This document shows, piece after piece, positions 1 through 17,409 of a DNA stretch of 17,409 nt. The stretch is from the NCBI GenBank assembly GCA_937899145.1, contig CALBPW010000392.1:1-17409 (forward strand), written 5' to 3'. Under the pieces are notes generated by a model, which worked only from the letters and a program-made list of their open reading frames with translations, ran no database searches and was not told the origin of the DNA. Position 1 is the first letter of the stretch. The number at the start of each line of letters is the position of its first letter. This DNA comes from an uncultured Bacteroidota bacterium. GTDB lineage: Bacteria; Bacteroidota; Bacteroidia; Bacteroidales; SZUA-534. The translations under genes were made by a program, and so were the position numbers.

Positions 1-136
1 CATCATACACCTGACAAGGAATGTCTATTTCTTGTCCACGACCGGCTGCACTACCGGTTGCCACTTGTTTCTGCGTTCCGCAAGCTGTCAGCAACGCCAC
101 TGCGGCAATTGCTTGAATGAAATTCTGAATCTTCAT
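1..136 (-). CDS. N-terminus of a lipoprotein, possibly LPP20-like (partial)
   Basis: The gene runs leftward off the window; 45 codons are visible from an ATG at 136-134. The start is MKIQNFIQAIAAVALLTACG, a signal peptide with lipobox LLTAC. Cys19 would be the lipidated residue, so the mature protein should be anchored in a membrane, usually the outer membrane in this phylum. After the Cys come a short Gln/Thr/Ala/Gly-rich linker and a stretch ending EIDIPCQVYD. From family memory, Bacteroidales LPP20-type lipoproteins have a similar 'hydrophobic signal, Cys, short linker, E-I/M-PC' start, which is my only reason for that name; too little of the protein is present to be firm. I see no consensus promoter directly upstream. 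A terminator and a folded RNA lie on the same strand 80 to 240 bases upstream and could belong to its leader. Confidence 0.75.
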   Translation of the reverse strand, partial: MKIQNFIQAIAAVALLTACGTQKQVATGSAAGRGQEIDIPCQVYD

Positions 137-215
137 CTTTATCGGATTTTTAATGTTAATATTTAAACAGTTATCATTTTTTTGTCATATAGTTGTTCCG
201 TACGAAAAAGACAAT

Positions 216-246
216 AAAAAAAGCGTGAAACTTAACTGTCTCCCGC
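216..246 (-). terminator. Intrinsic terminator after the structured RNA
   Basis: Read on the minus strand, GCGGGAGAC (246-238) pairs with GTTTCACGC (231-223) across the 6-base loop AGTTAA. That is 8 of 9 pairs, with one G-A mismatch and one G-U pair. Seven Ts (222-216) follow. The plus-strand reading has no U-run after the hairpin, so termination is directional. It lies between the structured RNA and the lipoprotein start at 136. Confidence 0.7.
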
Positions 247-370
247 TATTCTGAGGTATTTGGCGAAAACCTTGTGCACACGAAATAAGTCAAGCACACG
301 CTAATCTGCGTGGCATTTATGACCTATTCCTTCTGTGCACCCTTCAATCGCCAAATTTCCAGAATAGAAA
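216..370 (-). ncRNA. Rod-shaped structured RNA (6S-like or a leader element)
   Basis: A nested series of complementary arms folds this stretch into one long interrupted hairpin. The arms are 246-253 with 360-367 (8 bp), 258-266 with 348-356 (9 bp), 274-280 with 334-340 (7 bp), 284-292 with 320-328 (8 of 9 bp), and 294-301 with 308-314 (7 bp, one bulge) closing a 6-base loop. A 7 by 7 internal loop (267-273 and 341-347) lies between the second and third stems. The minus strand is chosen because a terminator hairpin with a seven-U tail follows directly at 246-216. A rod with a closing stem and an internal bubble is the general shape of 6S RNA, and Bacteroidota-specific 6S versions are known (6S-Flavo). 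An alternative is an attenuator or riboswitch in the leader of the lipoprotein gene at 136. The 5' end is not defined. Confidence 0.5.
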
Positions 371-496
371 GAAAAAGCCTTATGCTTTAATATGTCGTTA
401 AATCAATTGTTTATCTATCCTTAAAAAATTTGTTTAAAAAATTCAACAATAACCATTATCGTCTATTTAGACGCATCAACAGCGCATATAGTTGCG

Positions 497-504
497 CAAA
501 TGTA
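497..504 (-). promoter_or_regulatory. Possible -7 element for leftward transcription
   Basis: The minus-strand sequence is TACATTTG, an exact match to the Bacteroidetes -7 consensus TAnnTTTG. The place where a -33 TTTG would be expected (524-527) reads TTAT on the minus strand, so only half the promoter is present. It could drive the structured RNA and/or the lipoprotein gene with a start near 490. Short inverted repeats (481-496, GCGCA/TGCGC; 461-472, GTCTA/TAGAC) lie just downstream. Confidence 0.3.
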
Positions 505-566
505 GAGAAATTTGTATTGCGTTATAAAAAGTTGAATCTTCAGTTGATACTCAAACAAATCTACAA

Positions 567-597
567 TTTGTACAATTGTCATTTGTTTTTACTTTTG
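567..597 (+). promoter_or_regulatory. Promoter of the ruvA-sprA-porQ unit
   Basis: TTTG at 567-570, a 19-base spacer, then TACTTTTG at 590-597. This is an exact match to the Bacteroidetes housekeeping promoter TTTG-N19-TAnnTTTG. Transcription would start near 603-605, about 25 bases before the ruvA ATG at 630. The -33 box sits in an inverted repeat (ACAAAT 555-560 with ATTTGT 566-571), and a palindrome ACAATTGT (572-579) lies in the spacer. Either could be an operator, but that part is inference. Confidence 0.75.
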
Positions 598-629
598 CCG
601 GTTAAAAGTTTTTTTTCTGAGAATTAATC

Positions 630-1211
630 ATGTACGAATATATTCAGGGGCGCATTGTGGAACTTACACCAACATACGTTGTAGTTGACAACAATGGCAT
701 TGGCTATCAGATACTTATATCGCTTAATACTTATACCGCATTATCGGGCAAAGAGCAAGCTGTGGTTTTTACGCACTATATTGTTCGCGAAGACGCGCAA
801 ATACTTTACGGATTTTACTCGAAAACCGAGCGTGAGGTTTTCCGCTTACTGCTCACAGTATCGGGTGTTGGAGCCAACACGGCGCGTATGGTATTGTCGT
901 CGCTTAGCGCTGCCGAACTGCGCGATGCCGTGCTGACAGGAAATGTGTCGGTAATAAAAAGCATAAAAGGCGTTGGGCAGAAGACAGCCGAACGGATTAT
1001 TGTCGATTTGAAAGACAAAATAGGAAAAACCGAAGCAAATACAGATTTTTTATTCGCTCAAAGCAATACAAACCGCGAAGAAGCGTTATCTGCTTTGGTG
1101 GCTTTGGGTTTTCAAAAAAACGTTGTGGAGAAACTTCTCGACAAGTTGCTTAAGGAAAACCCGACAATGCAAGTTGAAGAAATGGTTAAAAAAGCCTTAA
1201 AATCGATATAA
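630..1211 (+). CDS. ruvA: Holliday junction branch migration protein RuvA
   Basis: The 193-residue product has the usual RuvA length. RuvA tetramers bind four-way DNA junctions in the cytoplasm and load the RuvB motor for branch migration during recombination repair. Domain I is an OB fold at about 1-65 (start MYEYIQGRIVEL; the YGFYSKTERE segment near 60-70 is typical). Domain II holds two helix-hairpin-helix motifs: LLLTVSGVGANTARMVL near 72-90 and IKSIKGVGQKTAERIIVDL near 107-126. After an acidic linker, domain III (about 147-193; REEALSALVALGF) is the RuvB-contacting part. The ATG follows a consensus promoter by about 30 bases, in an A/T-rich context without a Shine-Dalgarno site. Only 9 bases separate its stop from the sprA start, so co-transcription is likely. 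The ruvA-sprA adjacency is common in Bacteroidota. Confidence 0.97.
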   Translation: MYEYIQGRIVELTPTYVVVDNNGIGYQILISLNTYTALSGKEQAVVFTHYIVREDAQILYGFYSKTEREVFRLLLTVSGVGANTARMVLSSLSAAELRDAVLTGNVSVIKSIKGVGQKTAERIIVDLKDKIGKTEANTDFLFAQSNTNREEALSALVALGFQKNVVEKLLDKLLKENPTMQVEEMVKKALKSI

Positions 1212-1220
1212 ATCAAGTAG

Positions 1221-4200
1221 ATGGGGTCGATGTTGAAAACGACACTGCACGTTGCTATTGCAGTTATTTTCATTGTTAGCACGGGGTGTGTTTATGCACA
1301 ATCGGGTGGCGATACAACGGCTTTGCCATTCCGTATAGCCAAGCCCAAAAGCACGCCTTACGAACCATCGCGCCCGGCATCGAACCTTAACTTAAAAGAC
1401 CCGTCGAATTTTACCAACGAGGTAGAGTACGATGAGGAAACCGACCAATACATTCTGCATCAGAAAGTTGGCGGCGTTGATGTGCGCCCGCCATTCAGTA
1501 TGTCGCGCGATGAATATAATAGCTACGATGTCGATCGCTCGATGCGCAGCTATTGGCGGCAACGCTACCAGAACGAGAGTTTTGAGCGTCAAGGCCCGTC
1601 GCTTACCAAAATCAATGTCAATAACGAACTGTTTGAAACCATTTTCGGCAGCAATGTTATCGACATAAAACCACAAGGAACGGCATCGCTGAAATTTGGC
1701 GTGAAGATTACCAACACGGCCAATCCAAACATTGCGCAATCGCTGCGGCGACAAACAATTTTTGATTTCGACGAGCAGATACAAATGAGCGTGGCAGGTA
1801 AGATTGGCGACAATCTGGAACTGAAAATAACGTACGACACCGAGTCGCAATTTGATTTTGACAACACTGCAAATCTGAAATTTCAAGGTAAAGAAGACGA
1901 TATTATCCAAAAGATTGAAGCGGGAAACGTATCTCTGCCGCTATCAACATCGCTTATAACAGGCAGCCAAAGTTTGTTTGGCGTGCTAACTGAGTTGAAG
2001 TTTGGCAAACTATATGTTTCGACAGTCATCTCACAACAAAAAGGCGAGTCGAAAACCATAACCACGCAAGGCGGAGCGCAGACAAGCACATTCGATGTGT
2101 CGGCTGTCGATTACGACAAGAACCGCCATTTCTTTCTTTCGCACTTCTTCCGCTCGCAATACGACAAGGCTCTTAAACAATTGCCACTGATAGTGTCGAG
2201 TGTGCAGATAACTAAAATTGAAGTGTGGGTAACAAACACCAAAAAATCGACCGAAAACGCACATAACATTGTGGCATTCATGGATTTAGCTGAGGAACGC
2301 GAAGAGTACAAAATGTACAACCGGAAAGACCGTGCCGTGCTAAATTCTGATGTCAATTTTTACAACTACGCCGCGCCCGACAATGGTGCGAACAGCTTGT
2401 ATCAAGACGTGTTGTCGGTATCAGGTGTGCGCAACATCGACCAAGTAACCAAACAACTGAGCGGAGCAGGCTACTCCAGCGCGCGCGACTATGAGAAAGT
2501 GGAATATGCTCGAAAACTGAATAGCAACGAGTATTCGCTAAACACGCAATTGGGCTATATCACTCTAAATACAGCACTTAACAGCGACGAAATTTTGGCT
2601 GTCGCCTTTGAATACTCCTACAACGGACAAAGTTACAAAGTGGGTGAATTTTCGAGCGACGGTATCAATAATCCCGACAACTTGATAGTCAAACTATTGA
2701 AAGGCAGCAACTTTACACCAAAATACCCAAACTGGGACTTGATGATGAAAAACGTCTATTCGCTTGGCGCATATCAGCTCAATAGCGATGATTTTGTGCT
2801 TGAAGTTGAATATTACAACAATAGGTCGCGTGTGCGCAAATTGTCGAATGCTTATCTGTCAGAAGAAATAAAAAACGCTAAACTTCTGAATCTGATGGGT
2901 TTGGACAACTTGAACAACAAAAACGACTACGTTAAAGGCGGAAACGGATTTTTCGATTTTGTAAGCGGAGTAACAGTGAATGCAACTAACGGGCGAATTT
3001 ATTTTCCTGTAGTTGAACCATTTGGAGGACATTTGCACGATACTTTGGGCGGCGATTTGCAATCGAAAGAATTTCTGTTTCAAGAGTTGTACGACTCCAC
3101 CCAATACAAAGCAATGCAGATAACCGCCCGCAACAAATTCTATCTGAAAGGCTCGTACAAATCGGCTGGCGGGTCGGAGATAATCCTCAACTCGTTCAAT
3201 ATTCCGCAAGGCTCAGTAACCGTAACGGCCGGCGGCATCACACTAACTGAAAATGTCGATTACACAGTTGATTACAGCATGGGCCGTGTTAAAATCATCA
3301 ACGAGAGCTACCTTGTGTCGGGAACACCGATAAAAGTGAATCTTGAAAGTAATTCCGACTTCAACCTGATGACAAAAACATTGCTCGGTACGCATTTCGA
3401 TTACCGCTTTAGCGACAAATTTAACTTGGGCGGAACCATAATGCGCCTAACTGAGAAACCGACAACCACTAAAGTGAACGTTGGCGAAGACCCAATATCG
3501 AATACCATTTGGGGATTGAACGGCTCGTATGAGGTTGATTTGCCGCTTGTTACAAAATTCATCGACTGGTTGCCGTTGCTCGAGACAAAAGAGCCGTCAA
3601 CGCTATCAGTACAAGGCGAATTCGCGCAACTTGTGCCCGGCCACAACAAAGCCGTGGGCAAAACGGGCGAGGTGTTTATCGACGATTTTGAAAGCAGCGA
3701 ATCGAACTACGATATGACCAGCCGCGAGGCTTGGAAACTCGCCAGTATTCCGCAAGACAATATTTTCTCTGAGGCATCGCTCTATGGCGATTTGCGCTCA
3801 GGCTACAATCGCGCCAAACTTGCGTGGTACAAAATCGACCCGCTGATGTTTCAATCAAGCTCGCCAGTGTCGAAAGCTGAACAATCACGCCTCAACGCCT
3901 ATCGTGTGCCAGAGCTTAACATCTATCCTAATCGCGACCAATCGTCGGGCGATGCTATGTACCTGACAACCTTCGACCTTGCCTACGACCCAACCTTGCG
4001 GGGACCATACAACTACAGCACCGACGATTACGACGAGACCGGACATTTTACCAATCCCGAGGACAAATGGGCGGGCATTATGCGCGAAACGACAATCAAA
4101 AACTTTGAGACATCAAACATCGAATATCTTGAATTTTGGATGATGGACCCATTTGTTGAAGAAGACTCGCTAAATCAGGGCGGCCAACTTTACTTCAACT

Positions 4201-7200
4201 TTGGCAATGTGTCGGAAGACGTGTTGAAAGACGGACGGAAAAGTTACGAAAACGGACTGCCAACCCAATGGCCAGCCGACCCGTCAACTTACGACGTTAC
4301 CGCTTGGGGGCGCGTGCCAGCTGTGCAGACAAGCACTCTCAGCTTTGTCAACGATGAAGGACAACGCCGCTACCAAGATATAGGTCTTGACGGACTGAGT
4401 AGCACATCGTTCGATGGCGGACCGTCTGACGAGCAAGTATTCTTCTCAACCTATCTGCAAGAACTTGAAAAAGTGCTTGACCCCGAGGTTTATCAAAGTT
4501 TCTACAACGACCCGTCGGGCGACGATTATCATTATTTTAAAGGAAGCGATTACGATGCGGCTAACTACGGCATTGTAGATAGATATATGAACTACAATGG
4601 TTTGGAAGGCAACTCGCCCGTCAGCACAGGGTCAACATCAACATACGCCACATCGCAGCCCGATGTTGAAGACCTGAACAGCGATTACACACTTTGCGAA
4701 ACAGAATCGTACTTTCAATACCGCGTCGATTTAAATCGCGACAATATGAATGTCGGCTCAAACTACATTGTTGATATACGCAATGTAACCAACACAATGC
4801 CAAACTCAGAACACAAATCGGTTAAATGGTACTTGTTCCGTATTCCGCTCAACTCAAGCGGGCGCGAGCAGATTGGTAATATCGAAGATTTCACGTCAAT
4901 CCGGTTTATGCGCATGTTCCTGCACGGTTGGAGCGAGAAAATCGTACTGCGTTTTGCGACCCTCAGCCTTGTCAAAAGTGATTGGTTCACATACGATTAC
5001 AACTTAAAAGATGGCAGCGAAAGCCTTGTCAGCACTGAAAATGCCAACGACGCCGCAGCCTCGTTCAGCATGTCAACTGTCAACATTGAAGAAAACGGCA
5101 GCCGCAGCCCTGTAAATTATGTTCTGCCTCCGGGCGTTACTCGCGAGCAAGACCCATCGCAAACGCAACTTGTTGAGCTGAACGAGCAAAGTATGACAAT
5201 GAAGGTTGTTGATTTGGCCGATGGCTATTCAAAAGCCGTGTACAAAACAGTAAATGTTGACATGCGCAACTACAAAAAACTGAAAATGTACATCCATGCC
5301 GAATCCGTTGACGACGAAACATCGCTCAGCGACAATGAGATAACATGTTTTATCCGTATCGGACAAGATTATACCGAAAACTACTATGAATATGAAGTGC
5401 CGCTGAAGCTGACACCTTGGTGGACATCGCGCCCTTACCCCGACAATAGTCAGAACCGCGAACTGGTTTGGCCTGAGGATAACAATATGGAAATTGTTTT
5501 TGACGAACTGATAAATGCAAAACTTGAGCGTAATGCCGAAATAAGTGCGGGAAATCAGTCGGTTTCGATGTCGCTGCCCTATGTGGTAACAACAAAATCG
5601 GGTAGTGTTACGCGTAAAATAACAGTCGTCGGCAACCCGAATATCGCACTTGTCAAATCGCTGATGATTGGTGTGCGCAACCCGCTTGCCAAAACCAACG
5701 TGTTCGATCCAAGCGACGACGGATTGAAAAAATCAGCTGAGGTTTGGCTAAACGAGCTCCGCCTAACCGACTTTGACGAAAGCGGCGGTTGGGCTGTTCA
5801 GGGTTCAATGAATCTGAAACTTGCCGATTTTGGTAACATCAATATGGCAGGCAGCTCAACGCAAGCAGGATTCGGAAGCATCGAACAATCAACATCGGAA
5901 CGCTCAAAAGAGCAAACCAACCAAATTGATGTGGCCGCCAATTTCGAACTTGGAAAACTATTCCCAAAAGAGCACAATGTCCGTATTCCAATGTTTATGA
6001 GCTATTCGCGTACAGCTGTCAATCCTGAATACAACCCGTTTGACCCCGACGTAAAAATTAAAGAGGCCACAAAAAGTATGTCGCATAGCGAGAAGAAAGA
6101 ATATATGAAAGACATTCAGGAACTTACCGAACGAAAAAGCATCAGTTTCACAAATGTGGGATACGGCGGCCGCACAAAGAAAAACACGGCGCGTCGAAAT
6201 GAAAAAACCGACGACAAAAAGCAAACCGCCAAAAAGCAAACAAACTCGAACAAGACACACTTCTATTCGCCGCAAAACTTTAGCGCAAGCTATGCGTACG
6301 TTGAAAAGAAATACAACGACTACAGCACCGCTTACGACAATACCCGAACACATACCGGCTCACTGAATTACACTTTCAATAATCAACCTAAGGCGTATGA
6401 GCCATTTAAGAAGATAAAGGCATTCAAGAAACCATATCTGCGCTTAATTGGTGACATCAATTTCTACTTGGCTCCAGCACAAATCGCATGGCGCACAGGC
6501 GTTGAGCGCGAGTATAACGAAACTCTGCTGCGAAACACCAATTTGAGTGTGACATCGGAAGGCGAAGAATATACGCCAACTTGCGACAAAACATTTGATT
6601 GGGAGCGCGAGTTTAGCATCAAATACAACCTGTCAAAAGGCATAAAATTCACTTGGCAGATAAACACACTGTCGGTTATTGAAGAACCCGAAGGATTGAT
6701 TGATAAAAACAATCGTACTGAATACGAACATTTTAAAAAGGTTGTTTGGGAATCAATTCTTGAAGGCGGAACAGCCAAAGAACATAACCAGAAATTTACA
6801 GCATCGTGGACAGTGCCAGTAAACAAATTGCCCGGCTTGGCATGGACATCGTTAACGGCTCGATACGCCTCAACATACGAGTGGGAAGTTGGCTCTGAAG
6901 TGCAAGACACATCGCTGTTTTCAGGCAATATGATTGGCAATACCAACCAGATAAACATCAACGCGCAAGGCAATTTGGACAACCTATACAAAAAGTACAA
7001 ACCACTTGACGACCTCTACAAAAAATATCGTCAGACACGCGAAAAACGCCTTAGCAAGCGGCAAGAAAACGTATCGGCACGAAAAGAGAATTTCAGCGCC
7101 AAAACAGGCGAAACCAAAACCATAACTCACAACTTGCGCACCGACGAAAGCATACAGGTGAAAGTTACAAAATCAGGGAGGACACTAAAATCGAGGTTTG

Positions 7201-8735
7201 AAGTTGTGAACGAAAATCGCGTGCGCGTAACCATGGACGAAGATGCCGATGATGCTATTGTAACCGTCAGCGGCAAACGTGCAACCGAGGATTCGCCAGC
7301 CCGCCGGCTGATGGAAGCTATTGTGCTTGGCGCAACAGGCTTCAAAAACGTATCGGTCGCCTACACTGAAACCAACGCAATGACACTTGAAGGATATACA
7401 CCAAACTATAGCTTTACCGGATTGCGGAAAAATCCGGGCATTCCATTTATCTTTGGCTGTCAAGATACCGCTTTTGCCGAAAAAACAGCGCGTAAAGGAT
7501 TGTTAATCAGCAATCGCGACCTTGTGGAACCATTCTTAACCACAAATCAGAAACGTATCGATATAAAAGCTACTTATCAGCCAGTGAAAGCGCTCAAAAT
7601 AGATTTTACAGGACAACGCACCATAACCAAAAAGAGCAGCGAGTACTACTACGTTGGCAATTGGAATGCAAAAGCCGGTGAATACGATGTTTACCGCTCA
7701 ACACGCATGGAATCCGGCGCTTACAATGTGAACATCTGGTCGCTGAAAACAGCCTTCGATAAGCGACCGACAGAGAAACACGCCTCGTCGGAATCTTTTG
7801 CCGAATACCGTAGCAATTTGCGAAAATTCGCATGGCAACAAGCTGAACAGCGCCGCTGTCATGCGCCGTCAAGCTATGGCGAATATGACCCTGAATACGA
7901 CGCCGACTCAATGCCACAAGGCTATTCAATATCGAACCCCGATATTGCCGTGCCGTCCTTTTTGTTGGCATACACAGGCCGCGAGTCGGGACTGAACTTT
8001 ACAAGTTGGAAGCACTTCCGCCCGGGTTGGCGTGTAAAATACGACGGATTAACCAATTATAAACTGTTCAAGAGCAAATTCAAAAGCATATCGCTATCGC
8101 ACAGCTACACAAGCACATTCAGCATCGGTTCATACGCCAGCAACAGCCTTTACAACTATCAGCAGGCCAAACGCCCCGAATATGCCAACCTGTCGTGGGC
8201 AACAAGCGTTGTCAATACCGATATGTTTATCCCATATTACGACCTTACATCGTTCTCAATATCAGAATCGTTTGCGCCACTTTTCGGCATCGATGTTACA
8301 TGGAAAAGCAGCATGAGCTCGAAGTTGGAATTTAAGCGCAGCCGCACTATGACTATGAATCTGACAAACAACCAAATGCTTGAAGTGCACAAGCGCGAGT
8401 ATGTTATTGGAACCGGTTACAGAATAGACGATGTTGTGCTGCCATTCAAAACACGGCAAGGCGCGCAAATTGTGAGCGACCTTAACTTGCGAGCCGATTT
8501 TACCATCAGCGACAACATATCAGTTACTCGCGATCTTGTTTATGAAACCGATGAGATAACTTCCGGACAACTTGGCGTGGCAATGAGCCTATCGGCTGAA
8601 TACGAGCTTAATGACAAGGTTACACTCAAACTTTATTACGATTACGACCTGACAAATCCGAAAACGTCAAACTCGTATCGCAACAGCACCACCGAGTTTG
8701 GCTTCCAACTAAAAATAGCATTAGCGAAACTATAA
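1221..8735 (+). CDS. sprA: Type IX secretion outer-membrane translocon SprA/Sov
   Basis: The product has 2504 residues, close to Flavobacterium SprA and Porphyromonas Sov. SprA is the giant single-chain beta-barrel through which type IX cargo crosses the outer membrane. Residues 1-26 are a signal peptide, with probable cleavage after VYA and before QS. An alternative start at Met4 (1230) would also give a good signal. The N-terminal half contains SprA-type repeated modules. The hallmark LPLLETKEPSTLSVQGEFAQL is followed by GEVFIDDFE at residues 816-824. Residues near 1645-1680 form a Lys/Arg/Thr-rich, low-complexity loop. Residues near 1915-2030 (two copies of LYKKY, then charged helix and beta segments) look like a soluble insertion between barrel strands. 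The C-terminus alternates polar and hydrophobic residues and ends FGFQLKIALAKL, as expected for a last barrel strand. No frameshift or internal stop was seen. porQ, another T9SS gene, follows after 22 bases. Confidence 0.95.
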   Translation: MGSMLKTTLHVAIAVIFIVSTGCVYAQSGGDTTALPFRIAKPKSTPYEPSRPASNLNLKDPSNFTNEVEYDEETDQYILHQKVGGVDVRPPFSMSRDEYNSYDVDRSMRSYWRQRYQNESFERQGPSLTKINVNNELFETIFGSNVIDIKPQGTASLKFGVKITNTANPNIAQSLRRQTIFDFDEQIQMSVAGKIGDNLELKITYDTESQFDFDNTANLKFQGKEDDIIQKIEAGNVSLPLSTSLITGSQSLFGVLTELKFGKLYVSTVISQQKGESKTITTQGGAQTSTFDVSAVDYDKNRHFFLSHFFRSQYDKALKQLPLIVSSVQITKIEVWVTNTKKSTENAHNIVAFMDLAEEREEYKMYNRKDRAVLNSDVNFYNYAAPDNGANSLYQDVLSVSGVRNIDQVTKQLSGAGYSSARDYEKVEYARKLNSNEYSLNTQLGYITLNTALNSDEILAVAFEYSYNGQSYKVGEFSSDGINNPDNLIVKLLKGSNFTPKYPNWDLMMKNVYSLGAYQLNSDDFVLEVEYYNNRSRVRKLSNAYLSEEIKNAKLLNLMGLDNLNNKNDYVKGGNGFFDFVSGVTVNATNGRIYFPVVEPFGGHLHDTLGGDLQSKEFLFQELYDSTQYKAMQITARNKFYLKGSYKSAGGSEIILNSFNIPQGSVTVTAGGITLTENVDYTVDYSMGRVKIINESYLVSGTPIKVNLESNSDFNLMTKTLLGTHFDYRFSDKFNLGGTIMRLTEKPTTTKVNVGEDPISNTIWGLNGSYEVDLPLVTKFIDWLPLLETKEPSTLSVQGEFAQLVPGHNKAVGKTGEVFIDDFESSESNYDMTSREAWKLASIPQDNIFSEASLYGDLRSGYNRAKLAWYKIDPLMFQSSSPVSKAEQSRLNAYRVPELNIYPNRDQSSGDAMYLTTFDLAYDPTLRGPYNYSTDDYDETGHFTNPEDKWAGIMRETTIKNFETSNIEYLEFWMMDPFVEEDSLNQGGQLYFNFGNVSEDVLKDGRKSYENGLPTQWPADPSTYDVTAWGRVPAVQTSTLSFVNDEGQRRYQDIGLDGLSSTSFDGGPSDEQVFFSTYLQELEKVLDPEVYQSFYNDPSGDDYHYFKGSDYDAANYGIVDRYMNYNGLEGNSPVSTGSTSTYATSQPDVEDLNSDYTLCETESYFQYRVDLNRDNMNVGSNYIVDIRNVTNTMPNSEHKSVKWYLFRIPLNSSGREQIGNIEDFTSIRFMRMFLHGWSEKIVLRFATLSLVKSDWFTYDYNLKDGSESLVSTENANDAAASFSMSTVNIEENGSRSPVNYVLPPGVTREQDPSQTQLVELNEQSMTMKVVDLADGYSKAVYKTVNVDMRNYKKLKMYIHAESVDDETSLSDNEITCFIRIGQDYTENYYEYEVPLKLTPWWTSRPYPDNSQNRELVWPEDNNMEIVFDELINAKLERNAEISAGNQSVSMSLPYVVTTKSGSVTRKITVVGNPNIALVKSLMIGVRNPLAKTNVFDPSDDGLKKSAEVWLNELRLTDFDESGGWAVQGSMNLKLADFGNINMAGSSTQAGFGSIEQSTSERSKEQTNQIDVAANFELGKLFPKEHNVRIPMFMSYSRTAVNPEYNPFDPDVKIKEATKSMSHSEKKEYMKDIQELTERKSISFTNVGYGGRTKKNTARRNEKTDDKKQTAKKQTNSNKTHFYSPQNFSASYAYVEKKYNDYSTAYDNTRTHTGSLNYTFNNQPKAYEPFKKIKAFKKPYLRLIGDINFYLAPAQIAWRTGVEREYNETLLRNTNLSVTSEGEEYTPTCDKTFDWEREFSIKYNLSKGIKFTWQINTLSVIEEPEGLIDKNNRTEYEHFKKVVWESILEGGTAKEHNQKFTASWTVPVNKLPGLAWTSLTARYASTYEWEVGSEVQDTSLFSGNMIGNTNQININAQGNLDNLYKKYKPLDDLYKKYRQTREKRLSKRQENVSARKENFSAKTGETKTITHNLRTDESIQVKVTKSGRTLKSRFEVVNENRVRVTMDEDADDAIVTVSGKRATEDSPARRLMEAIVLGATGFKNVSVAYTETNAMTLEGYTPNYSFTGLRKNPGIPFIFGCQDTAFAEKTARKGLLISNRDLVEPFLTTNQKRIDIKATYQPVKALKIDFTGQRTITKKSSEYYYVGNWNAKAGEYDVYRSTRMESGAYNVNIWSLKTAFDKRPTEKHASSESFAEYRSNLRKFAWQQAEQRRCHAPSSYGEYDPEYDADSMPQGYSISNPDIAVPSFLLAYTGRESGLNFTSWKHFRPGWRVKYDGLTNYKLFKSKFKSISLSHSYTSTFSIGSYASNSLYNYQQAKRPEYANLSWATSVVNTDMFIPYYDLTSFSISESFAPLFGIDVTWKSSMSSKLEFKRSRTMTMNLTNNQMLEVHKREYVIGTGYRIDDVVLPFKTRQGAQIVSDLNLRADFTISDNISVTRDLVYETDEITSGQLGVAMSLSAEYELNDKVTLKLYYDYDLTNPKTSNSYRNSTTEFGFQLKIALAKL

Positions 8736-8757
8736 AAGCGACAGAAATATTGACGAC

Positions 8758-9813
8758 ATGAGAAATTGCCTAAAAACAAAAAGATTTCATTATACGCAGC
8801 AATGTTTGTTAATTGCTCTCTTTTTGTTTATGGCAATTGCGGCAAAAGCGCAAGCCGGCAAAACAGTTTACCAGTTTGTTGAACTGCCGGCGTCGGCGCG
8901 AGTGGGGGCATTGGGCGGCGTGCCACAAGCCATTGCCGGCAACGACCTTAATCTTGCAACATGCAATCCGGCACTTTTGTCGCCAAAAACCGAAGAACGG
9001 GCAGCTGTCAATTATACCAATTATGTTGCAGGAATATCAGTGGCAGATGCCGCATATAGTTTCCACACCAAGTATGCGCCCGGCACACTCGCCGCTGGCT
9101 TGGTTTATCTGAATAGCGGAAAAAGTACCCGCTATGATGAATGGGGAAACGCCTCAGGAGGTTTTTGGTCGAACGAGGTGGCTTTCCGTCTTTCCTATTG
9201 TCAGCAATTCGATACTTGTTTCTCGATAGGAGCCAGTGTAAAACCGGTTTTTTCACACATCGGAGGATATACATCGGTTGGCTTGCTTGCCGATGTGTCA
9301 GCTGTTTATAAATTTCGAAATAACAGAACCGCCACATCAGTTCTGCTCCGAAATTTTGGCTCGCAACTGATAGCTTACGACGGCCATTACGCCGATACAC
9401 CATTTGAGATTTTAACTGCCATCAGCCACACGCTTGAACATGCGCCATTCCGCATTAGCCTTGTATTACAGCAAATGCAAAAATTCAAACTTCAACCAGC
9501 TAATAAAAACACAACCGAACTTGGCTCGGAAGTTGATGACAATAGCAATAAACTTCCCGATTTTGTTGATAATTGTTTGCGGCATTGTGTTTTAGGTATC
9601 GAACTTTTTCCAGAGAAAACTTTTACTCTCCGTGGCGGTTTTAACTACAAACGCCGTCAAGAGTTAAAATTGAGCAACTCGCCAGGCATGGCAGGCCTCT
9701 CGTTTGGCTTCGGATTGAAACTCAAACGCTTCAGCGTCGAATATGCCAATGCCCGATACACGCTTGGCGGCCGGTCAAATCATTTCTCGCTTGTAATCAA
9801 TATGCTGAAATAG
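8758..9813 (+). CDS. porQ: Type IX secretion system protein PorQ
   Basis: The 351-residue product has an N-terminal signal (basic start, hydrophobic core near 16-30, AxA-type site at AKAQA). It has the PorQ hallmarks as I know them: FVELPASARVGALGG after the signal, then CNPALL, NYTNYVAGIS, RHCVLGIELFPEKTFTLRGGFNYKRRQELK, and a C-terminal SNHFSLVINM. PorQ is an outer-membrane barrel related to PorV. In the attachment complex of the type IX system it helps handle cargo at the cell surface. The start follows sprA by 22 bases on the same strand, so ruvA, sprA and porQ probably share one transcript. Its stop codon forms part of an inverted repeat shared with the convergent neighbour, only 6 bases away. 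PorV is the main alternative, but the RRQELK/SNHFS pattern favours PorQ. Confidence 0.88.
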   Translation: MRNCLKTKRFHYTQQCLLIALFLFMAIAAKAQAGKTVYQFVELPASARVGALGGVPQAIAGNDLNLATCNPALLSPKTEERAAVNYTNYVAGISVADAAYSFHTKYAPGTLAAGLVYLNSGKSTRYDEWGNASGGFWSNEVAFRLSYCQQFDTCFSIGASVKPVFSHIGGYTSVGLLADVSAVYKFRNNRTATSVLLRNFGSQLIAYDGHYADTPFEILTAISHTLEHAPFRISLVLQQMQKFKLQPANKNTTELGSEVDDNSNKLPDFVDNCLRHCVLGIELFPEKTFTLRGGFNYKRRQELKLSNSPGMAGLSFGFGLKLKRFSVEYANARYTLGGRSNHFSLVINMLK

Positions 9814-9833
9814 CATAAATCACTCTATTTCAG
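9804..9833. terminator. Inverted repeat spanning two convergent stop codons
   Basis: GCTGAAATAG (9804-9813) and its exact reverse complement (9824-9833) flank a 10-base loop. The left arm contains the porQ stop (TAG 9811-9813). The stop of the minus-strand gene (9820-9822) lies in the loop and that gene's last codons are in the right arm. Both transcripts would end in the same stem. No T-run follows on either strand, so it is either a U-less bidirectional terminator or a 3'-end stabilising hairpin. Confidence 0.5.
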
Positions 9834-10545
9834 CCATCTCGGTTTGCTTAGTGCATATTGTTACTCCAAAATCATCAATAAAGAGTTTTGAATGGTCTTT
9901 GTTGTAAAAATATGCCGCCAACATAGCATCGCCGGGCAACTCTTTGAGATGTATTTCTTTTTCAAAATAGAATTTGTACCAATGTGAATAAGCCCGCAAA
10001 TTGTCGGTTATTGTTGACGGCGACCACAAGATGTTGTTTGTTTGGTTTTCAAGGCTAATTACAGCCAAACAGCTTGTATTAGAATAGCAATTGCAAAATG
10101 CTGAAACTTGCACCATAACGGTATCATAGCCGGCACAAATGAGCGAGTCGAGCGGATATCTGAAGGTCGCTGAATATTTGCCCACTTTATTTGACCTTTT
10201 GCCACTGTATCTTATTTTTTCTGATAATTGCTGATTTTTGCTCCAATATTTTGGTACTGCCGAATCAAAATTGTTGATGCTGAAAAACAATGTGTCGGTA
10301 TGCTGAATAATATTTTTAAGCGAATCGGCCTCATATATCTTTATGCCAAGGCTATCGCATTTTGGTTTTTGCGTATCAATAACATAATTGGCATAAAATG
10401 GGAAGTCACTCTTCGACATCCCCGACAAAGCAATGGTATGATGATTCAATATCAAAAGTTTTTTGCCGCAACTGTTTGCCGGATTAAACTCGTCAAACGA
10501 CTGATAGCGGCCATTATTGGAAAAACCCGCATAGTAACGCATCAT
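9820..10545 (-). CDS. Beta-rich C-terminal half of a split glycosyltransferase
   Basis: I recognise no named family in these 241 residues. There is no signal peptide and no membrane span. The sequence is rich in short beta-like segments (DTLFFSINNFDS, ATFRYPLDSL, VMVQVSAFCN, FIDDFGVTIC) and suggests a beta-sandwich or carbohydrate-binding-like fold. The ATG at 10545 overlaps the glycosyltransferase stop by ATGA, which would permit translational coupling. More telling, this frame stays open for 13 codons upstream of the ATG and reads TDVISDEVQTRMMRYYAGF, good protein-like sequence overlapping the end of the glycosyltransferase ORF. I therefore think it is the periplasmic C-terminal domain of that enzyme, cut off by a one-base frameshift. 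If the shift is real, this half would need re-initiation and would lack export and anchoring. Confidence 0.7.
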   Translation of the reverse strand: MMRYYAGFSNNGRYQSFDEFNPANSCGKKLLILNHHTIALSGMSKSDFPFYANYVIDTQKPKCDSLGIKIYEADSLKNIIQHTDTLFFSINNFDSAVPKYWSKNQQLSEKIRYSGKRSNKVGKYSATFRYPLDSLICAGYDTVMVQVSAFCNCYSNTSCLAVISLENQTNNILWSPSTITDNLRAYSHWYKFYFEKEIHLKELPGDAMLAAYFYNKDHSKLFIDDFGVTICTKQTEMAEIE

Positions 10546-11903
10546 ACGGGTTTGAACTTCGTCTGATATAACATCTGTATTTTGTCATTATTTATGACAC
10601 TGTCTGTCAATATATTCCTGCGTCCAACGTATCCATATTGGCTGTTGTTTTTTATGGTGATTATAGGATCTATAAGCAGGCTTAATAATAATATGGCCGA
10701 TGCAAAGCGATTGTTCCTTGTTGATTTCCAAATTATTATAGCAAGCACAAATGCTATAAAGAAAGGCAAATAAACGTGCAGACAATTGTTCCGGCTTCTG
10801 AAGAATGTATAAGCGACAATAATTGCCAACAGCACTGATATTGCGACAATTTGCTTTTGGCTAAGTTTTTCTGATATTAGATAAGAAGCCCCAATAGATG
10901 CGATGGGTATAAAAAACAAGTAATGCCTTGGGTCAATGCACATCGGATTGTATGATGAGAGCGATATGGTCATAAAATTTGACGATAGGAATAATATGGC
11001 GGCCGAAACGATGAAAAAATCTGATGGTGATTTTATTTTCAGCATTATTTTCCACTTGCTGTTTATAAAGGCTGCAACAATAAAAATTATTGGTACGGCC
11101 AATGATTCGTTGATTGCCATTTTAAAGAAATCGGCAAACAAGCGTTTTACCAATATTCCGGCAGGCTGTTCGCTATAACTGCATAGGTTTAGATACCCGT
11201 TTTGCTCAATCGCTTTAAACCGATATAAAAACTCGCCTGTCAACAATTTTATGCTGACAAAATAGACAAGCAGACATACAAAACCCGCAACTGAAGCCCA
11301 AATCCAAAACCTGTAATTTTGCCGTGTAACAACATCTGTTACAAACAGATACAACAGCCACGGAACTAAAAGAACCACCGACCCTTTCGACATAAAGCCA
11401 AGCAATAATGATACAGCAAAAAGTATGGCAAAAAGAGCCGCACGTTTGTGAGATTGATATTTGTGCCGATAATAAGCAAACATGGCTATTGTTGTAAATG
11501 CCACCACATAAATATCGGGCATTAGCAATATGGAATATGATAGCATCCAATGGGCCGATATGGTAAGCAGCAAACCAAATGCGGTTACAACAAATCCTTT
11601 GGTTTTCAATATCAGATAAACGACAAACAATGTGATTATCGCCAACAGAACAGAAGGCAGTGATGATGCGAAATCGTTGATTCCGAACATTTTATACGAC
11701 AAAGCAGTAACAATAACGGTCAGACGGTATGTAAAATGATTGTCAAAATCAATATTCCCGTTGAGCAGATTTGTGGCTAACTCGGCATACTGCATATCGT
11801 CGTAACCAAAATGACCCGCATATCCAAATGCTCTGAACCCGATTACAACAACAACTGAAAAAAGAAAAGCCCAAAAAGGTTTGATGTTTAGCTTAAATGA
11901 CAT
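10542..11903 (-). CDS. GT-C membrane glycosyltransferase, family 39-like (probably frameshifted)
   Basis: The 453-residue protein has about 11 hydrophobic spans, typical of the polytopic ArnT/PMT-like enzymes. These move a sugar from a polyprenyl-phosphate donor to an acceptor on the outer side of the inner membrane. The first external loop carries FGYDDMQYAELA (Asp35, Asp36), matching the acidic catalytic motif after the first span in this superfamily. A second acidic site, MPD (Asp130), ends a later loop. The substrate cannot be told. The last residues after ILTDSVINNDK (about 431-441) look unnatural, whereas the neighbouring frame continues sensibly. Adding one A in the AAAA run (plus 10580-10583, codon 441) would fuse it to the next ORF and give about 694 residues. 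It lies downstream of a truncated secreted-protein gene, and two copies of a 13-bp repeat precede its ATG. Confidence 0.85.
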   Translation of the reverse strand: MSFKLNIKPFWAFLFSVVVVIGFRAFGYAGHFGYDDMQYAELATNLLNGNIDFDNHFTYRLTVIVTALSYKMFGINDFASSLPSVLLAIITLFVVYLILKTKGFVVTAFGLLLTISAHWMLSYSILLMPDIYVVAFTTIAMFAYYRHKYQSHKRAALFAILFAVSLLLGFMSKGSVVLLVPWLLYLFVTDVVTRQNYRFWIWASVAGFVCLLVYFVSIKLLTGEFLYRFKAIEQNGYLNLCSYSEQPAGILVKRLFADFFKMAINESLAVPIIFIVAAFINSKWKIMLKIKSPSDFFIVSAAILFLSSNFMTISLSSYNPMCIDPRHYLFFIPIASIGASYLISEKLSQKQIVAISVLLAIIVAYTFFRSRNNCLHVYLPFFIAFVLAIIIWKSTRNNRFASAILLLSLLIDPIITIKNNSQYGYVGRRNILTDSVINNDKIQMLYQTKFKPV

Positions 11904-11906
11904 TTT

Positions 11907-11941
11907 AATAGTGTTTAAACGGTGTAAAAATAGTGTTTAAA
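11907..11941. repeat. Two 13-bp direct repeats before the glycosyltransferase start
   Basis: AATAGTGTTTAAA occurs at 11907-11919 and again at 11929-11941. The spacing is 22 bases, about two helical turns. The first copy lies only 3 bases upstream of the minus-strand ATG at 11903-11901. Read on the minus strand the unit is TTTAAACACTATT, which also resembles a weak -7 box (TATTTTTA between the copies). Regulator sites on one DNA face, or a leader duplication, are both possible. Confidence 0.5.
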
Positions 11942-11995
11942 AAGCATTTCTAACGATTAACAGCAATTTGTCGCTTATATGTGCCCCTATTCACA

Positions 11996-12394
11996 TCAGT
12001 TATAACAAAAAAATTTTCTCCAGTGTGATTCAGAATACAAATCCAACCTCTCCATTGCCAACATTGCGTAGTACAATTCTTTTAAGGTTACCGAATAGTC
12101 TTGCCCATTATTTTTAAGCAGATATAACTCTGTTGAAAGTAAAGAAAGATAATGGCTCATAATGGAATTGCCATCGGACCATGATACATGTTTTTTATTT
12201 TCTGCATAGTAAATGTCTCCCGCAGGTATATTAACGCCTTCTTCTTCTACATTTTGGCTTATAACAATGAATTTTTCACGCAGGCGTTCGCGATAATGCC
12301 AGTATTTTTCGAGGTTCTGTTGGGGTGATTGAGCATTTATGACATTAGTACTAATAATAAATAAAGTGATTATCAATAATATCAATTGCTTCAT
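11996..12394 (-). pseudogene. Truncated N-terminal remnant of a secreted Bacteroidales protein
   Basis: The ORF has 132 codons. Residues 1-22 are a signal peptide (MKQLILLIITLFIISTNVINA, then QS), so it would be exported. The mature start, QNLEKYWHYRERLREKFIVI, and the later LYLLKNNGQDYSVTLKELYYAMLAMERLDLYSES resemble the first part of much longer (several hundred residue) uncharacterised secreted proteins of this order. That is family memory, not a search. The frame stops at HWRKFFCYN, with no continuation of the family in the 92 bases before the next gene. I therefore call it a 3'-deleted remnant, possibly still expressed. No good promoter was found directly upstream. Confidence 0.5.
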
Positions 12395-12640
12395 GGGTTA
12401 ACGGATTTATTATCAATCAAAAAACATGTTGAATCTGAAAATATATACTTTAATACTCCGAATGAATCGGGTATATAATATGTTTGTGGAATATGCTCAC
12501 ACCCATAAATTATTACGAACTAACCAAAAAAATTGTTTTTCTCATTTTTAGTTTGAATTTCTGTGCAAAGGAAACAAAAAAACTCAGCGCACATTATTTT
12601 TAATGATATTTGTCATAAAAAGAAAGGAGTGTATTTTAAA

Positions 12641-12648
12641 TACCTTTG
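12641..12648 (+). promoter_or_regulatory. -7 promoter element before the small Cys-rich ORF
   Basis: TACCTTTG matches the Bacteroidetes -7 consensus TAnnTTTG exactly. Transcription would start near 12655, about 13 bases before the ATG at 12668. The nearest TTTG upstream (12609-12612) is 28 bases away rather than 19, so the -33 box is poor. An A/G-rich stretch (12617-12629) lies between them. Confidence 0.5.
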
Positions 12649-12667
12649 CCCATAAACTTAAATTCCA

Positions 12668-12766
12668 ATGAAAACGCATCTTTTTGTTTTCATAATGCGG
12701 GCATTCTTTTTTTATGCCATCATAACATTTGCCGGCGGCTATTGCAACAACTGTCACTGCATGTAG
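12668..12766 (+). CDS. 32-residue hydrophobic peptide with Cys-rich tail (possible leader peptide)
   Basis: The reading frame is MKTHLFVFIMRAFFFYAIIT followed by FAGGYCNNCHCM and a TAG stop. It has a basic start, a hydrophobic core at about 5-22, then a Gly-Gly hinge and three cysteines in the last seven residues (YCNNCHC). A close consensus -7 promoter element sits 20 bases upstream. The size and the run of scarce Cys codons just before the stop resemble amino-acid-sensing leader peptides. The gene it would control is unclear: groES begins 315 bases downstream and is not a cysteine gene. It could also be a small membrane or metal-binding peptide, or the leader of a gene since deleted. The 100 bases after the stop hold no good ORF. 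Confidence 0.45.
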   Translation: MKTHLFVFIMRAFFFYAIITFAGGYCNNCHCM

Positions 12767-12864
12767 CCTTTGCTAAAAAAATACTGACTGAAAGCCGAAA
12801 TTAGTGTCAAACAATCTGTGTTTCCGATAACCATCAAGATAAAATTTCAGACACACCAAATAAT

Positions 12865-12933
12865 TGCCAAAATGTCAGTCTGCAATATGCTGCTTGCTAA
12901 GTCCTGTTTTTCAGCACTTTAATCATTTTGGCA
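12865..12933. repeat. Perfect 10-bp inverted repeat, widely spaced
   Basis: TGCCAAAATG (12865-12874) and its exact reverse complement CATTTTGGCA (12924-12933) enclose 49 bases. TTGGCA-like words recur downstream (12966-12971, 13003-13008). It lies between the Cys-rich ORF and the groES promoter. Either a long-loop RNA stem or two half-sites for a DNA-binding protein would fit. Confidence 0.4.
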
Positions 12934-12971
12934 TTGTATTTTCCTGGCATACACGCAGTGCATAATTGGCA

Positions 12972-13005
12972 TTTTGTCACTTAAAATGACAAAAAAAAAC
13001 ATTTG
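12972..13005 (+). promoter_or_regulatory. Candidate groESL promoter with overlapping palindrome
   Basis: TTTTGTCA (12972-12979) and TGACAAAA (12987-12994) form a perfect 8-bp inverted repeat with a 7-base spacer. Its left arm contains a TTTG (12973-12976). After 21 bases comes AACATTTG (12998-13005), one mismatch from the -7 consensus TAnnTTTG. A protein bound to the palindrome would cover the -33 box and spacer. The usual HrcA target CIRCE (TTAGCACTC-N9-GAGTGCTAA) is absent. The predicted start is near 13012, giving a leader of about 70 bases. Confidence 0.4.
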
Positions 13006-13020
13006 GCACAGATTATGATA

Positions 13021-13045
13021 TAAACCGCATCGGTTTTAAACCGCA
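13021..13045 (+). promoter_or_regulatory. Three-armed switching hairpin in the groES leader
   Basis: The direct repeat TAAACCGCA (13021-13029 and 13037-13045) brackets CGGTTT (13031-13036). CGGTTT can pair with the first AAACCG (13022-13027, 3-base loop) or the second (13038-13043, 1-base spacer), but not both. In mRNA the first is the feasible hairpin; in DNA the set could be an operator. It lies in the expected 5' leader, about 37 bases before the groES ATG. Confidence 0.35.
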
Positions 13046-13081
13046 AATACACAAATAATTATTAATTAAAATACATTTAAA

Positions 13082-13366
13082 ATGGCACAAGAACTTAAAG
13101 GTAGAGTAATTCCGGGCAAAGCCTTGGTATTACCAGCAGAGGCTGAAACAAAAACAGCAGGCGGTATCTACATTCCCGACACCGCAAAAGACAAACCGAC
13201 CCAAGGCAAAGTTGTGTTGCTTGGCGCACCTCTAAAAGACGAAACTCCTATCGATGTTAAAGTTGGCGACAACGTAATGTACGGCAAATATGCAGGCACC
13301 GAAATCGAAATTGATGGCGCCAAATATATGCTCATCAATACAAAAGACATCATTTATATCTTCTAA
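13082..13366 (+). CDS. groES: Co-chaperonin GroES
   Basis: This 94-residue protein has standard GroES size. Seven copies form the lid of the GroEL folding chamber in the cytoplasm. The start ELKGRVIPGKALVLPAEAET leads into the mobile loop (about 20-33), where the GGIYIPD segment provides the hydrophobic GroEL contact. Then come PTQGKVVLLG and VGDNVMYGKYAGTEIEIDG, the conserved roof and barrel, and a final ILNT-like MLINTKDIIYIF. It is followed by groEL after 20 bases on the same strand. The leader is very A/T-rich, with no Shine-Dalgarno site, as is usual in this phylum. Confidence 0.97.
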   Translation: MAQELKGRVIPGKALVLPAEAETKTAGGIYIPDTAKDKPTQGKVVLLGAPLKDETPIDVKVGDNVMYGKYAGTEIEIDGAKYMLINTKDIIYIF

Positions 13367-13374
13367 CTTATTAA

Positions 13375-15018
<1,644 letters not shown>

Positions 15019-15057
15019 TAAGCATTTTTTTCATATCAATAATTGATTTTAAATGGG

Positions 15058-15089
15058 AGGGAAATCTGAAAAGGGTTTCCCTTTTTTTT
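15058..15089 (+). terminator. Intrinsic terminator of groESL
   Basis: AGGGAAA (15058-15064) pairs with TTTCCCT (15076-15082) around an 11-base loop. The right arm runs into eight Ts (15082-15089). It lies about 40 bases after the groEL stop. The minus-strand reading has no T-run after the stem, so it serves groEL and not the convergent FAD gene. Confidence 0.85.
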
Positions 15090-15121
15090 GTTGAATTGGA
15101 AAATTGATTTGACGCGGAAAT

Positions 15122-16609
15122 CTAAAAATTCCCAACTTTCTTTGCGAGATACTCTTCGCCAAGAAATTCGGCACAAGTCAGCATGGCGGTTAATGTTACG
15201 CCAAGCGCACCATGCACGTTGAGGTTTTGACCCGTCATATAGAGGTTGCCAAGTTTTGTCCGTGTTGACACAAAGCCAATTTGCGGACATTTGTAATCTT
15301 TAATTATTCCGTAAGCCGACCCGTCGGTAGTGGCAGTAAAATCGCGATAGCTGAGTGGCGAAGTCGCATACACGGCTTCAATATTGCCGTCAAAACTAAT
15401 TCCGTGATTTTCAACAAATTGCAAAGTCTGCCGCACTTTTGCTTCTTTAAACAGCCGGTATCGTTCGCCACGATGTTCGGGTGTAGTGTCAGCCCACTCT
15501 TCAACCTCGCTCATATACATTGGTTGCAAAATATTGATAACATCAGCCCATTCGCTGTCAGAGGAGTGCGCTTGCATCGATATCAGGCAGTTGGTGGTAT
15601 GTCCGGCGTAGTTTTGACGGTCGTACCAAACGCTATTGTTGCCGTGCAGGTAGGTGTTGAAATTATTGTATCGTACGGTTTTTGGTTTTATTATCAGATA
15701 AATAGAAAAAATGCCATACGAATTTTGTAATGAGTTGATTCGTGTCAGATATGCATTTTTTATGCGTCGGCATTTATCCATAAGTTCGAGTGTGCGGCGT
15801 GGGTGGACGTTTGAAATGATGTTTTTTGCCTCGATAAATTCGCCGTTTGCAAGCTTCACGCCTTTGGCTTTCTCATTTTCGACAACGATGCGTGTTACCT
15901 CGCTGTTGTCGAGCACAGTTCCGCCGTTTGTGCGTATCACATTAATAAGTTCGTGGCTTACTTGAATGGTGCCGTCAACAAACCGATAAGCGCTTTCGAT
16001 GTATGAGTTGTTAATCATGGCGTGGGTGTAAAATGTTGATATATTGCGCACGCCGCCATAAAGCAATGCTGAACCTGCCAAAACATTTTGTAACACTTTG
16101 TCGCTAATGGTACTCTCAATAAGTCCGGCAGCCGATGTGCAAAAATATTTCATTCCTTCAGTTGCCAATTTCCCGCTTTTCAAAGTGTCAATGTTGATAA
16201 GATTACCAACGCTTTGCAACCGGGCGACGTATCTTTTTAGATTTTCGCGCTCGGCCGGAAATTGTTGAGCCAGCGTATCAACAAACTGCTTGTGCCCCAT
16301 TGCAAAGCTGTACTTTTTGCCATGATAGTGGATTTGGTCGAAGGCGTCGGGATTGAGCCTCCGAATTTTGAGTTTATCCATTATACCGAGGTAGCGAAAG
16401 TATTGGTTTGTGATTTGCCCATCATCAAGGCTGCCGACGTAGTGAATGCCAGTGTCGAAAAGATGCCCGCGGCGTGTGTATGTTTGAAAACAACCACCAA
16501 AATTGTCGTTCTTTTCAACCACACATACATTAAAACCCTCGCGGCTAAGCACTGCGCCACACTCCAAGCCGCCAAGTCCGCTGCCAATTATCAAAACATC
16601 GTATGCCAT
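15122..16609 (-). CDS. FAD-dependent phytoene desaturase/retinol 13,14-reductase-like oxidoreductase
   Basis: This 495-residue protein belongs to the CrtI/RetSat group of flavin enzymes, which saturate or desaturate double bonds in polyenes. The N-terminus AYDVLIIGSGLGGLECGAVL has the dinucleotide-binding GxGxxG (residues 9-14), and Glu32 ends the second strand for FAD ribose binding. Next come GGCFQTYTRRGHLFDTGIHYVGS, the substrate-side segment of this family, and VLDNSEVTRIVVENEKAKGVKL, the second FAD-binding region. The C-terminal LYMTGQNLNVHGALGVTLTAM is the closing flavin motif. Bacteroidales enzymes of this kind are usually annotated as all-trans-retinol 13,14-reductase or phytoene desaturase, and the real substrate is unknown. 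There is no carotenoid gene beside it. It stands alone and converges on groEL. Its ATG is about 19 bases downstream of a near-consensus promoter box. Confidence 0.9.
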   Translation of the reverse strand: MAYDVLIIGSGLGGLECGAVLSREGFNVCVVEKNDNFGGCFQTYTRRGHLFDTGIHYVGSLDDGQITNQYFRYLGIMDKLKIRRLNPDAFDQIHYHGKKYSFAMGHKQFVDTLAQQFPAERENLKRYVARLQSVGNLINIDTLKSGKLATEGMKYFCTSAAGLIESTISDKVLQNVLAGSALLYGGVRNISTFYTHAMINNSYIESAYRFVDGTIQVSHELINVIRTNGGTVLDNSEVTRIVVENEKAKGVKLANGEFIEAKNIISNVHPRRTLELMDKCRRIKNAYLTRINSLQNSYGIFSIYLIIKPKTVRYNNFNTYLHGNNSVWYDRQNYAGHTTNCLISMQAHSSDSEWADVINILQPMYMSEVEEWADTTPEHRGERYRLFKEAKVRQTLQFVENHGISFDGNIEAVYATSPLSYRDFTATTDGSAYGIIKDYKCPQIGFVSTRTKLGNLYMTGQNLNVHGALGVTLTAMLTCAEFLGEEYLAKKVGNF

Positions 16610-17409
16610 AAACTCACTAAAAACGCCAAAGATAACGGAATTGGTGAATTGTAGAAATGGTTTTTGAATGGTGATGATGAATCAGAAGAATAAATCTCCA
16701 CTTGTTTAAATTTTGACGGAATCGGGTTTGATCGGTTACGCTTACCCTTGCTTTGTCTGGTAGTGTGAAATCCAACATCTGCTAAAATTTCTGTTTTTGT
16801 TTTATTCTTTTTTGTTCTTATGCACAATCTACAACAGCAAATACCTGTAATTAATTTACAGAAAAATATTATAGTAAAAATAAAAATAATAATTAAAATA
16901 GCCAAAAAAATTATCACGAAAAAAAAAGTAAAATATTTATTCCATTTAAAAGGAATATGTAATTTATCTAAAATATATTGCATAGTATTGTTAATTTTAT
17001 TTAATAATATTCTTCCGAAATTTTTATATATGAATTTAATATGCGCTCCTTTCGGTTTAATTAAAGCTGCTTCCAAAGGCTTTTTTTTATCAATGAAATT
17101 CATAATATTTTCTTCATTATAATTAGAATGAAAAATATACATTAAATCCTCTTCTAATAAAACAACTTTTGGAACATAAGAAACATTAAATCGATTAGAA
17201 ATCCAAGGGCATTTCATTGTATCAATATAAACAAAGCCTATTCTTTTATTAAAATATTTTTTCATTATTTTATTTAATAAATCGTAAACAGGGATACATT
17301 TTTCGCAATTTGGATGTGTAAAAAATAATAACCAATTCACATTATCATATGTCGTTTCCCAATTAAATGTTTCATCGGTTACTTGCGTCCAGTGATCGTA
17401 TGAGATTAT
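16591..17409 (-). CDS. Eukaryote-like membrane-anchored thioredoxin (TMX/PDI-like), partial
   Basis: The frame is open to the right edge, so the N-terminus is missing. A GTG at 17340 is an in-frame codon, not a likely start. The 272 visible codons begin YDHWTQVTDETFNWETTYDN, matching the 'LTDETF' strand of PDI-type thioredoxin domains. The active site is HPNCEKC (CxxC, Glu-Lys between the cysteines), and the cis-proline is in SYVPKVVLL. After a linker comes a very hydrophobic span (16932-16861), then juxtamembrane cysteines (GICCCRLC) and a basic, Ser-rich tail. This order (lumenal thioredoxin, one membrane span, Cys-rich then charged cytoplasmic tail) is that of ER TMX proteins. The DNA is extremely A/T-rich (8 G/C in 16861-16920). 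The last 20 or so codons run through the FAD gene promoter and start, so the native C-terminus is absent or replaced. Protist host DNA joined to a bacterial contig is the best reading; lateral transfer is less likely. Confidence 0.6.
   Translation of the reverse strand: MISYDHWTQVTDETFNWETTYDNVNWLLFFTHPNCEKCIPVYDLLNKIMKKYFNKRIGFVYIDTMKCPWISNRFNVSYVPKVVLLEEDLMYIFHSNYNEENIMNFIDKKKPLEAALIKPKGAHIKFIYKNFGRILLNKINNTMQYILDKLHIPFKWNKYFTFFFVIIFLAILIIIFIFTIIFFCKLITGICCCRLCIRTKKNKTKTEILADVGFHTTRQSKGKRNRSNPIPSKFKQVEIYSSDSSSPFKNHFYNSPIPLSLAFLVSLWHTMF
16628..16658 (-). promoter_or_regulatory. Promoter of the FAD oxidoreductase gene
   Basis: On the minus strand, TTTC (16658-16655), a 19-base spacer and TATCTTTG (16635-16628) match the Bacteroidetes promoter with one mismatch in the -33 box and a perfect -7 box. 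The start of transcription would be near 16622, giving a short leader before the ATG at 16609. It shows that the bacterial sequence reaches at least to about 16660, although a longer reading frame from the right end passes through it. Confidence 0.6.

Follow-up and report, generated by a model that had tools for sequence, protein, structure and literature searches.

The locus considered here raises the question of why an open reading frame for a membrane thioredoxin of eukaryotic type lies at the very end of a bacterial contig. Within the window (the whole stretch of DNA that was analysed, 17,409 nucleotides), the frame covers 16591-17409 on the minus strand and is open at the contig end. As argued below, the contig end is very probably a chimera, with part of an unrelated gene from a protist making up the last 627 bases.

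The frame itself is a composite, and only 16783-17409 is its thioredoxin part. This part is identified by homology, composition and the Pfam Thioredoxin domain (28.7 bits against a cut-off of 23.5) as a TMX-like membrane thioredoxin fragment on the minus strand, truncated at both its 5′- and 3′-ends. It harbors VTDETF, CEKC, YVPK, one membrane span and the cysteine-rich juxtamembrane CCCRLC, followed by a lysine-rich stretch, in agreement with the layout given in the preliminary description, including a cis-proline that is probably the one in YVPK. The preliminary description had, however, placed the gene at 16591..17409 and ascribed a basic tail to it; the frame and its thioredoxin are indeed there, and the lysine-rich stretch does begin in the fragment, but the last 63 codons (16782 down to 16591), which include part of that tail, match none of the 17 aligned relatives. 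These codons have a G+C content of about 37%, cross the element that lies upstream of the neighboring bacterial gene and then run antisense into that gene; they are taken to be open by chance and not to be native to the thioredoxin gene. At its other side the window copy lacks a 5′-end, because the contig end removes a stretch equal to 17 residues in P0001, the closest metagenomic relative, and the C-terminal KxKxx end seen in relatives is lost at the join.

The join between protist and non-protist DNA can be placed at 16777..16783 from the end of homology and from a change-point in G+C content, which are mutually independent measures. The last codons with homology to the aligned relatives are GAA ATT TTA, of which the final one occupies 16785-16783. 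When 15001-17409 is divided once by G+C content, the best break lies between 16782 and 16783, at 46 natural-log units above no split, with positions 16760-16794 lying within 2 log units. The changes of ancestry and of composition thus coincide sharply, as they would in a chimeric contig. The G+C content is 22.4% in 16780-17409, 37% in 16649-16779 and 43.1% in 1-16609, which bears out the A/T richness noted earlier for the segment; the coding fragment has 22.2% G+C and a GC3 of 18.7%, and the lowest 630-base window within 1-16609 has 30.5%.

The 148 bases that adjoin the join (16635..16782, about 37% G+C) are probably bacterial upstream DNA, as their composition fits a bacterial spacer, and they may otherwise represent a third small piece. 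When searched with some flank against 8 and 11 genomes of the genus, they gave short weak matches only, in part to the promoter-like element described below; no candidate protein shared three words with them, and exact 31- and 32-base patterns had zero matches in IMG/VR. Of 393 genomes from the order, 4 had matches of 23-31 bases, with E values per genome of 7e-5 to 8e-4, and these were taken as chance.

Bacterial DNA most likely extends to at least 16634, because a promoter-like element, TATCTTTGGC (16625..16634, minus strand), is conserved upstream of the next gene in relatives. This gene (15122..16609, minus strand), which adjoins the join, encodes a phytoene-desaturase-like, FAD-dependent oxidoreductase with the Pfam domains Amino_oxidase and NAD_binding_8. 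The element, which presumably corresponds in kind to the Bacteroidota -7 promoter element that it resembles, occurs twice in the window against 0.04 matches expected by chance, and at 16634-16625 it starts 25 bases before the oxidoreductase start codon. In five of the seven relatives whose upstream DNA was inspected (L001, L002, L003, L006 and L016), an identical ten-base sequence begins 26 bases ahead of the start codon; it differs by one base in L004 and is absent in L005; a 20-base form is exact in L001, L002, L006 and L016. By eye, the bases upstream of the oxidoreductase differ between species of the genus, and synteny there is uninformative.

The bacterial part of the contig appears, from sequence comparison, to come from a rumen bacterium whose near relatives are MAGs labelled Salinivirgaceae (Bacteroidales). 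The oxidoreductase is 75-78% identical to its counterparts in eight loci of that group, one of which covers residues 167-493 only, and the best match (78%) is in the Salinivirgaceae MAG RGIG5159. Six of the eight loci are titled Salinivirgaceae and two uncultured Bacteroidetes, with titles that name sheep abomasum or rumen, yak reticulum or omasum and water buffalo omasum. GroEL (13387..15018, plus strand) likewise seems in line with a ruminant-gut Salinivirgaceae host: among the 11 genomes of the genus to which G001 belongs (G001 has the best oxidoreductase match), 10 have a GroEL that is 96-97% identical, over the whole length in seven and over part of it in three. The groEL and oxidoreductase genes are adjacent and convergent in the window (13387-16609) and lie about 24 kb apart on the same strand in contig C55 of G001. 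Between a short open reading frame and groES, 12395-13081 is A/T-rich (about 30-33% G+C in 500-base windows), though less so than the contig-end segment, and holds no open reading frame of at least 70 amino acids. The other contig end (2-136) is ordinary-looking bacterial DNA in which a lipoprotein-like frame on the minus strand, MKIQNFIQAIAAVALLTACG..., runs off the end. Neither a tRNA nor an Rfam family was found in the window.

From about 5.8 billion proteins, a search drew 481 candidates, 94 of which were relatives of the thioredoxin at E 10 or better. The closest, P0001 (240 residues), aligns to 86% of the query with 97% identity and 470 bits, and its longest contig has 987 bases; for the remaining 93, identity over the parts that align is 50-92%, and one relative is named thiol-disulfide isomerase/thioredoxin by its source. 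In P0001, 17 mostly hydrophobic residues lie ahead of the point where the window copy begins, and the C-terminus is KEKIE. The N-terminus is hydrophobic in full-length relatives, with that of P0001 staying below 1.6 in 19-residue hydropathy windows; the windows above 1.6 in P0001 form one stretch (residues 172-215, peak 3.55), which indicates a single span after the thioredoxin domain. Of the 94 relatives, 82 have at least 225 residues; all 82 carry a juxtamembrane CCx[LF]C, and 81 have lysines at -3 and -5, the exception, P0005, ending one residue earlier. Both tail lysines are invariant among 50 aligned relatives, and an ER retrieval signal is thus present in the tail of the relatives, as a motif only. 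An AlphaFold2 model of P0001 (mean pLDDT 79, pTM 0.56) has a thioredoxin domain with pLDDT of about 85-95 (residues 21-130); the helices after it are modelled less confidently. A thioredoxin fold with CxxC and cis-proline is supported by the Pfam match, by the aligned CEKC and YVPK and by the resemblance of this model to thioredoxin structures.

Could the gene nevertheless be a native Bacteroidota membrane thioredoxin lodged in an A/T-rich stretch? The thioredoxin fold is universal, bacterial thioredoxins are among the best Foldseek matches of the P0001 model, and weak matches at E 0.01 were obtained in 36 of 393 sampled Bacteroidales genomes. The best two of these, however, reach 27.7 bits against the 470 bits of P0001, are 26-29% identical and extend over no more than residues 12-113, leaving out the span and tail. 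Presence in bacterial relatives of the host, by which nativeness was judged, was not found: none of 20 genomes of the bacterial family gave a match at E 1e-4, in a search run without a positive control, and six peptides of the open reading frame, scanned in genome_contigs (84,980 prokaryote species genomes; contigs under 3 kb excluded), gave 117 pattern matches with no encoding relative, one of the scanned peptides, TDETFNWE, occurring in 77 of the 94 metagenomic relatives. Peptide-pattern scans of IMG/VR (21 and 600 pattern matches) retrieved no relative, and among 28 phage records with short matches to the frame the best 20 all cover at most 11%. Bacteroidota membrane proteins of the same architecture, which according to the preliminary description would have spoken for native DNA had they been the best matches, were thus sought in genome_contigs and in the 20 family and 393 order genomes and were not found. 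The conserved C-terminal K-x-K-x-x, being a eukaryotic retrieval signal, also argues against a native gene, and we regard this explanation as the least credible of those considered.

An alternative that is slightly less improbable, but still highly so, is recent horizontal transfer, in which a TMX-like gene of a protist was inserted into the genome of a rumen bacterium, upstream of the FAD-oxidoreductase gene. Because ciliates eat bacteria, the two meet in the rumen (PMC6211341), and the frame is open across the join. The fragment has no 3′-end, however, and, at the contig end, no start; its G+C content is still 22%; no relative appeared in the genome_contigs pattern scan or in the 20 family genomes; and no transposon or integration signature was noticed by eye around the join. 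The fuller version of this scenario, in which a rumen Salinivirgaceae bacterium has newly gained an ER-thioredoxin gene from a ciliate and the frame of that gene continues into 63 new codons beside the oxidoreductase gene, is slightly more doubtful again; if transfer were true, it would be a very recent one from protist to bacterium. Thus, of the two alternatives in the preliminary description, the artefactual join is favored over uptake, because the gene is cut at both ends and lies at the contig end, because none of the 20 family genomes gave a match at E 1e-4 and because none of the relatives found sits on a contig longer than 2141 bases. The gene is almost certainly that of a gut protist, and its attachment is probably ordinary contamination: the protist fragment would have been joined to the bacterial contig during library preparation or assembly. 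Chimeric metagenome contigs likewise change abruptly in composition and ancestry near a contig end and cut a gene on both sides, which was judged here from sequence. Counted against a chimera are the frame that stays open for 63 codons past the join, the segment 16635-16782 without a clear match and the best oxidoreductase match of 78%; at that identity the exact species is not among the matches, and therefore an empty site was not seen. The earlier statement that either alternative reveals a eukaryotic partner goes too far, since one shared gut sample suffices; that sample explains the join, and the eukaryote is a sample mate with which no partnership is shown. As a bacterial feature the gene most likely does not exist, and the case is a warning that gene-sized protist DNA can attach to prokaryote contigs in rumen assemblies and mimic horizontal transfer.

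With the chimera as the preferred reading, the owner of the gene remains to be considered. In type-I membrane proteins of eukaryotes, a KxKxx end serves as a signal for retrieval to the ER, and we know of no bacterial use of a conserved C-terminal K-x-K-x-x; the KxKxx ends of the relatives therefore indicate a eukaryotic owner. The eukaryotic character claimed in the preliminary description is well supported by this signal, by the hydrophobic start, by the G+C content of 22% and by the lack of prokaryote relatives in the pattern scan. Rumen ciliates fit best, because the family is diverse and A/T-rich, is found on gene-sized contigs and occurs alongside a rumen bacterium: the longest contigs of all 94 relatives have 590-2141 bases, as expected for gene-sized chromosomes or transcripts. 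From composition, contig size and habitat, the protist side is most likely a rumen ciliate. Another A/T-rich eukaryote, such as an anaerobic gut fungus, takes a small share of the chimera explanation, given that the ciliate label draws on these properties and not on the names of the relatives, and anaerobic fungi are rumen dwellers that are also very A/T-rich; however, 94 closely related clusters, none with a contig longer than 2141 bases, better suit diverse ciliates with gene-sized chromosomes. For the rumen ciliate Entodinium caudatum, the portion of the genome report drawn on here gives a genome G+C content of 21.5% and an average of 2779 bp for two-telomere contigs (PMC10978948), and its telomeres are (CCCCAAT)n (PMC6211341). 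The 22.2% G+C of the coding fragment here is similar to that genome value. Telomere-like CCCCAAT occurs once in the window, at position 10889 within a bacterial gene. The open reading frames are intact under table 11, in keeping with the standard genetic code of Muniziella, a gut trichostome ciliate, as stated in an excerpt of its description (PMC11316547).

Judged by its layout, the gene most likely encodes a type-I ER membrane thioredoxin of the TMX/PDI kind. In the excerpted account of the TMX family, TMX1 (TXNDC1) has one luminal thioredoxin-like domain, one span, a short cytosolic tail and two membrane-proximal palmitoylated cysteines (PMC7563315), whose counterpart here would be the CCx[LF]C found in the relatives. 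The same excerpt gives TMX1 a di-arginine ER signal (PMC7563315), in contrast to the KxKxx end of the relatives, and the CEKC active site of the window copy is a further difference from TMX1. TMX3 (TXNDC10) is described there as a type I protein that shares the trait of a C-terminal lysine retention motif, KKKD, but has three thioredoxin-like domains (PMC7563315), compared with one here. The thioredoxin domain of human TMX1 (1x5e) is matched in sequence at only E 0.12 and ranks seventh in Foldseek with the P0001 model, which retrieves thioredoxins in general, and bacterial thioredoxins do equally well or better in sequence and in fold; fold alone, taken here from a predicted model, is no proof of TMX kinship, and the fold matches do not separate TMX from other thioredoxins. 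In the owner cell, a signal peptide would send the protein to the ER, where one membrane span would hold it with its CxxC facing the lumen, and the C-terminal KxKxx signal would return it there. Tethered to the membrane in this way, it would work as a reductase or isomerase, as TMX1 is described to do (PMC7563315), with the CxxC reducing the disulfides of secreted or membrane proteins or exchanging them. This location and function are the most likely ones suggested by the layout; in the bacterium the protein would have no role, as the gene would not be part of that genome.

The analysis also brought to light a metagenomic family of TMX-like thioredoxins that is well conserved and probably belongs to rumen ciliates; some of its members lack the first catalytic cysteine. 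In PDB sequence searches, the membrane part of the thioredoxin also matched coronavirus spike chains (E 0.011 and weaker), which was put down to a likeness of cysteine-rich hydrophobic stretches. By eye, serine replaces the first active-site cysteine (SNIC, SKIC or SNKC) in 7 of the 94 relatives (P0063, P0065, P0068, P0071, P0072, P0082 and P0087), P0089 has neither cysteine, P0080 has CQKC and P0094 lacks the region. Going by their sequences, the relatives without the first cysteine, and P0089, are likely to be paralogues without normal redox chemistry, and those with serine recall TMX2, the active site of which is given as SNDC in the excerpted account (PMC7563315).
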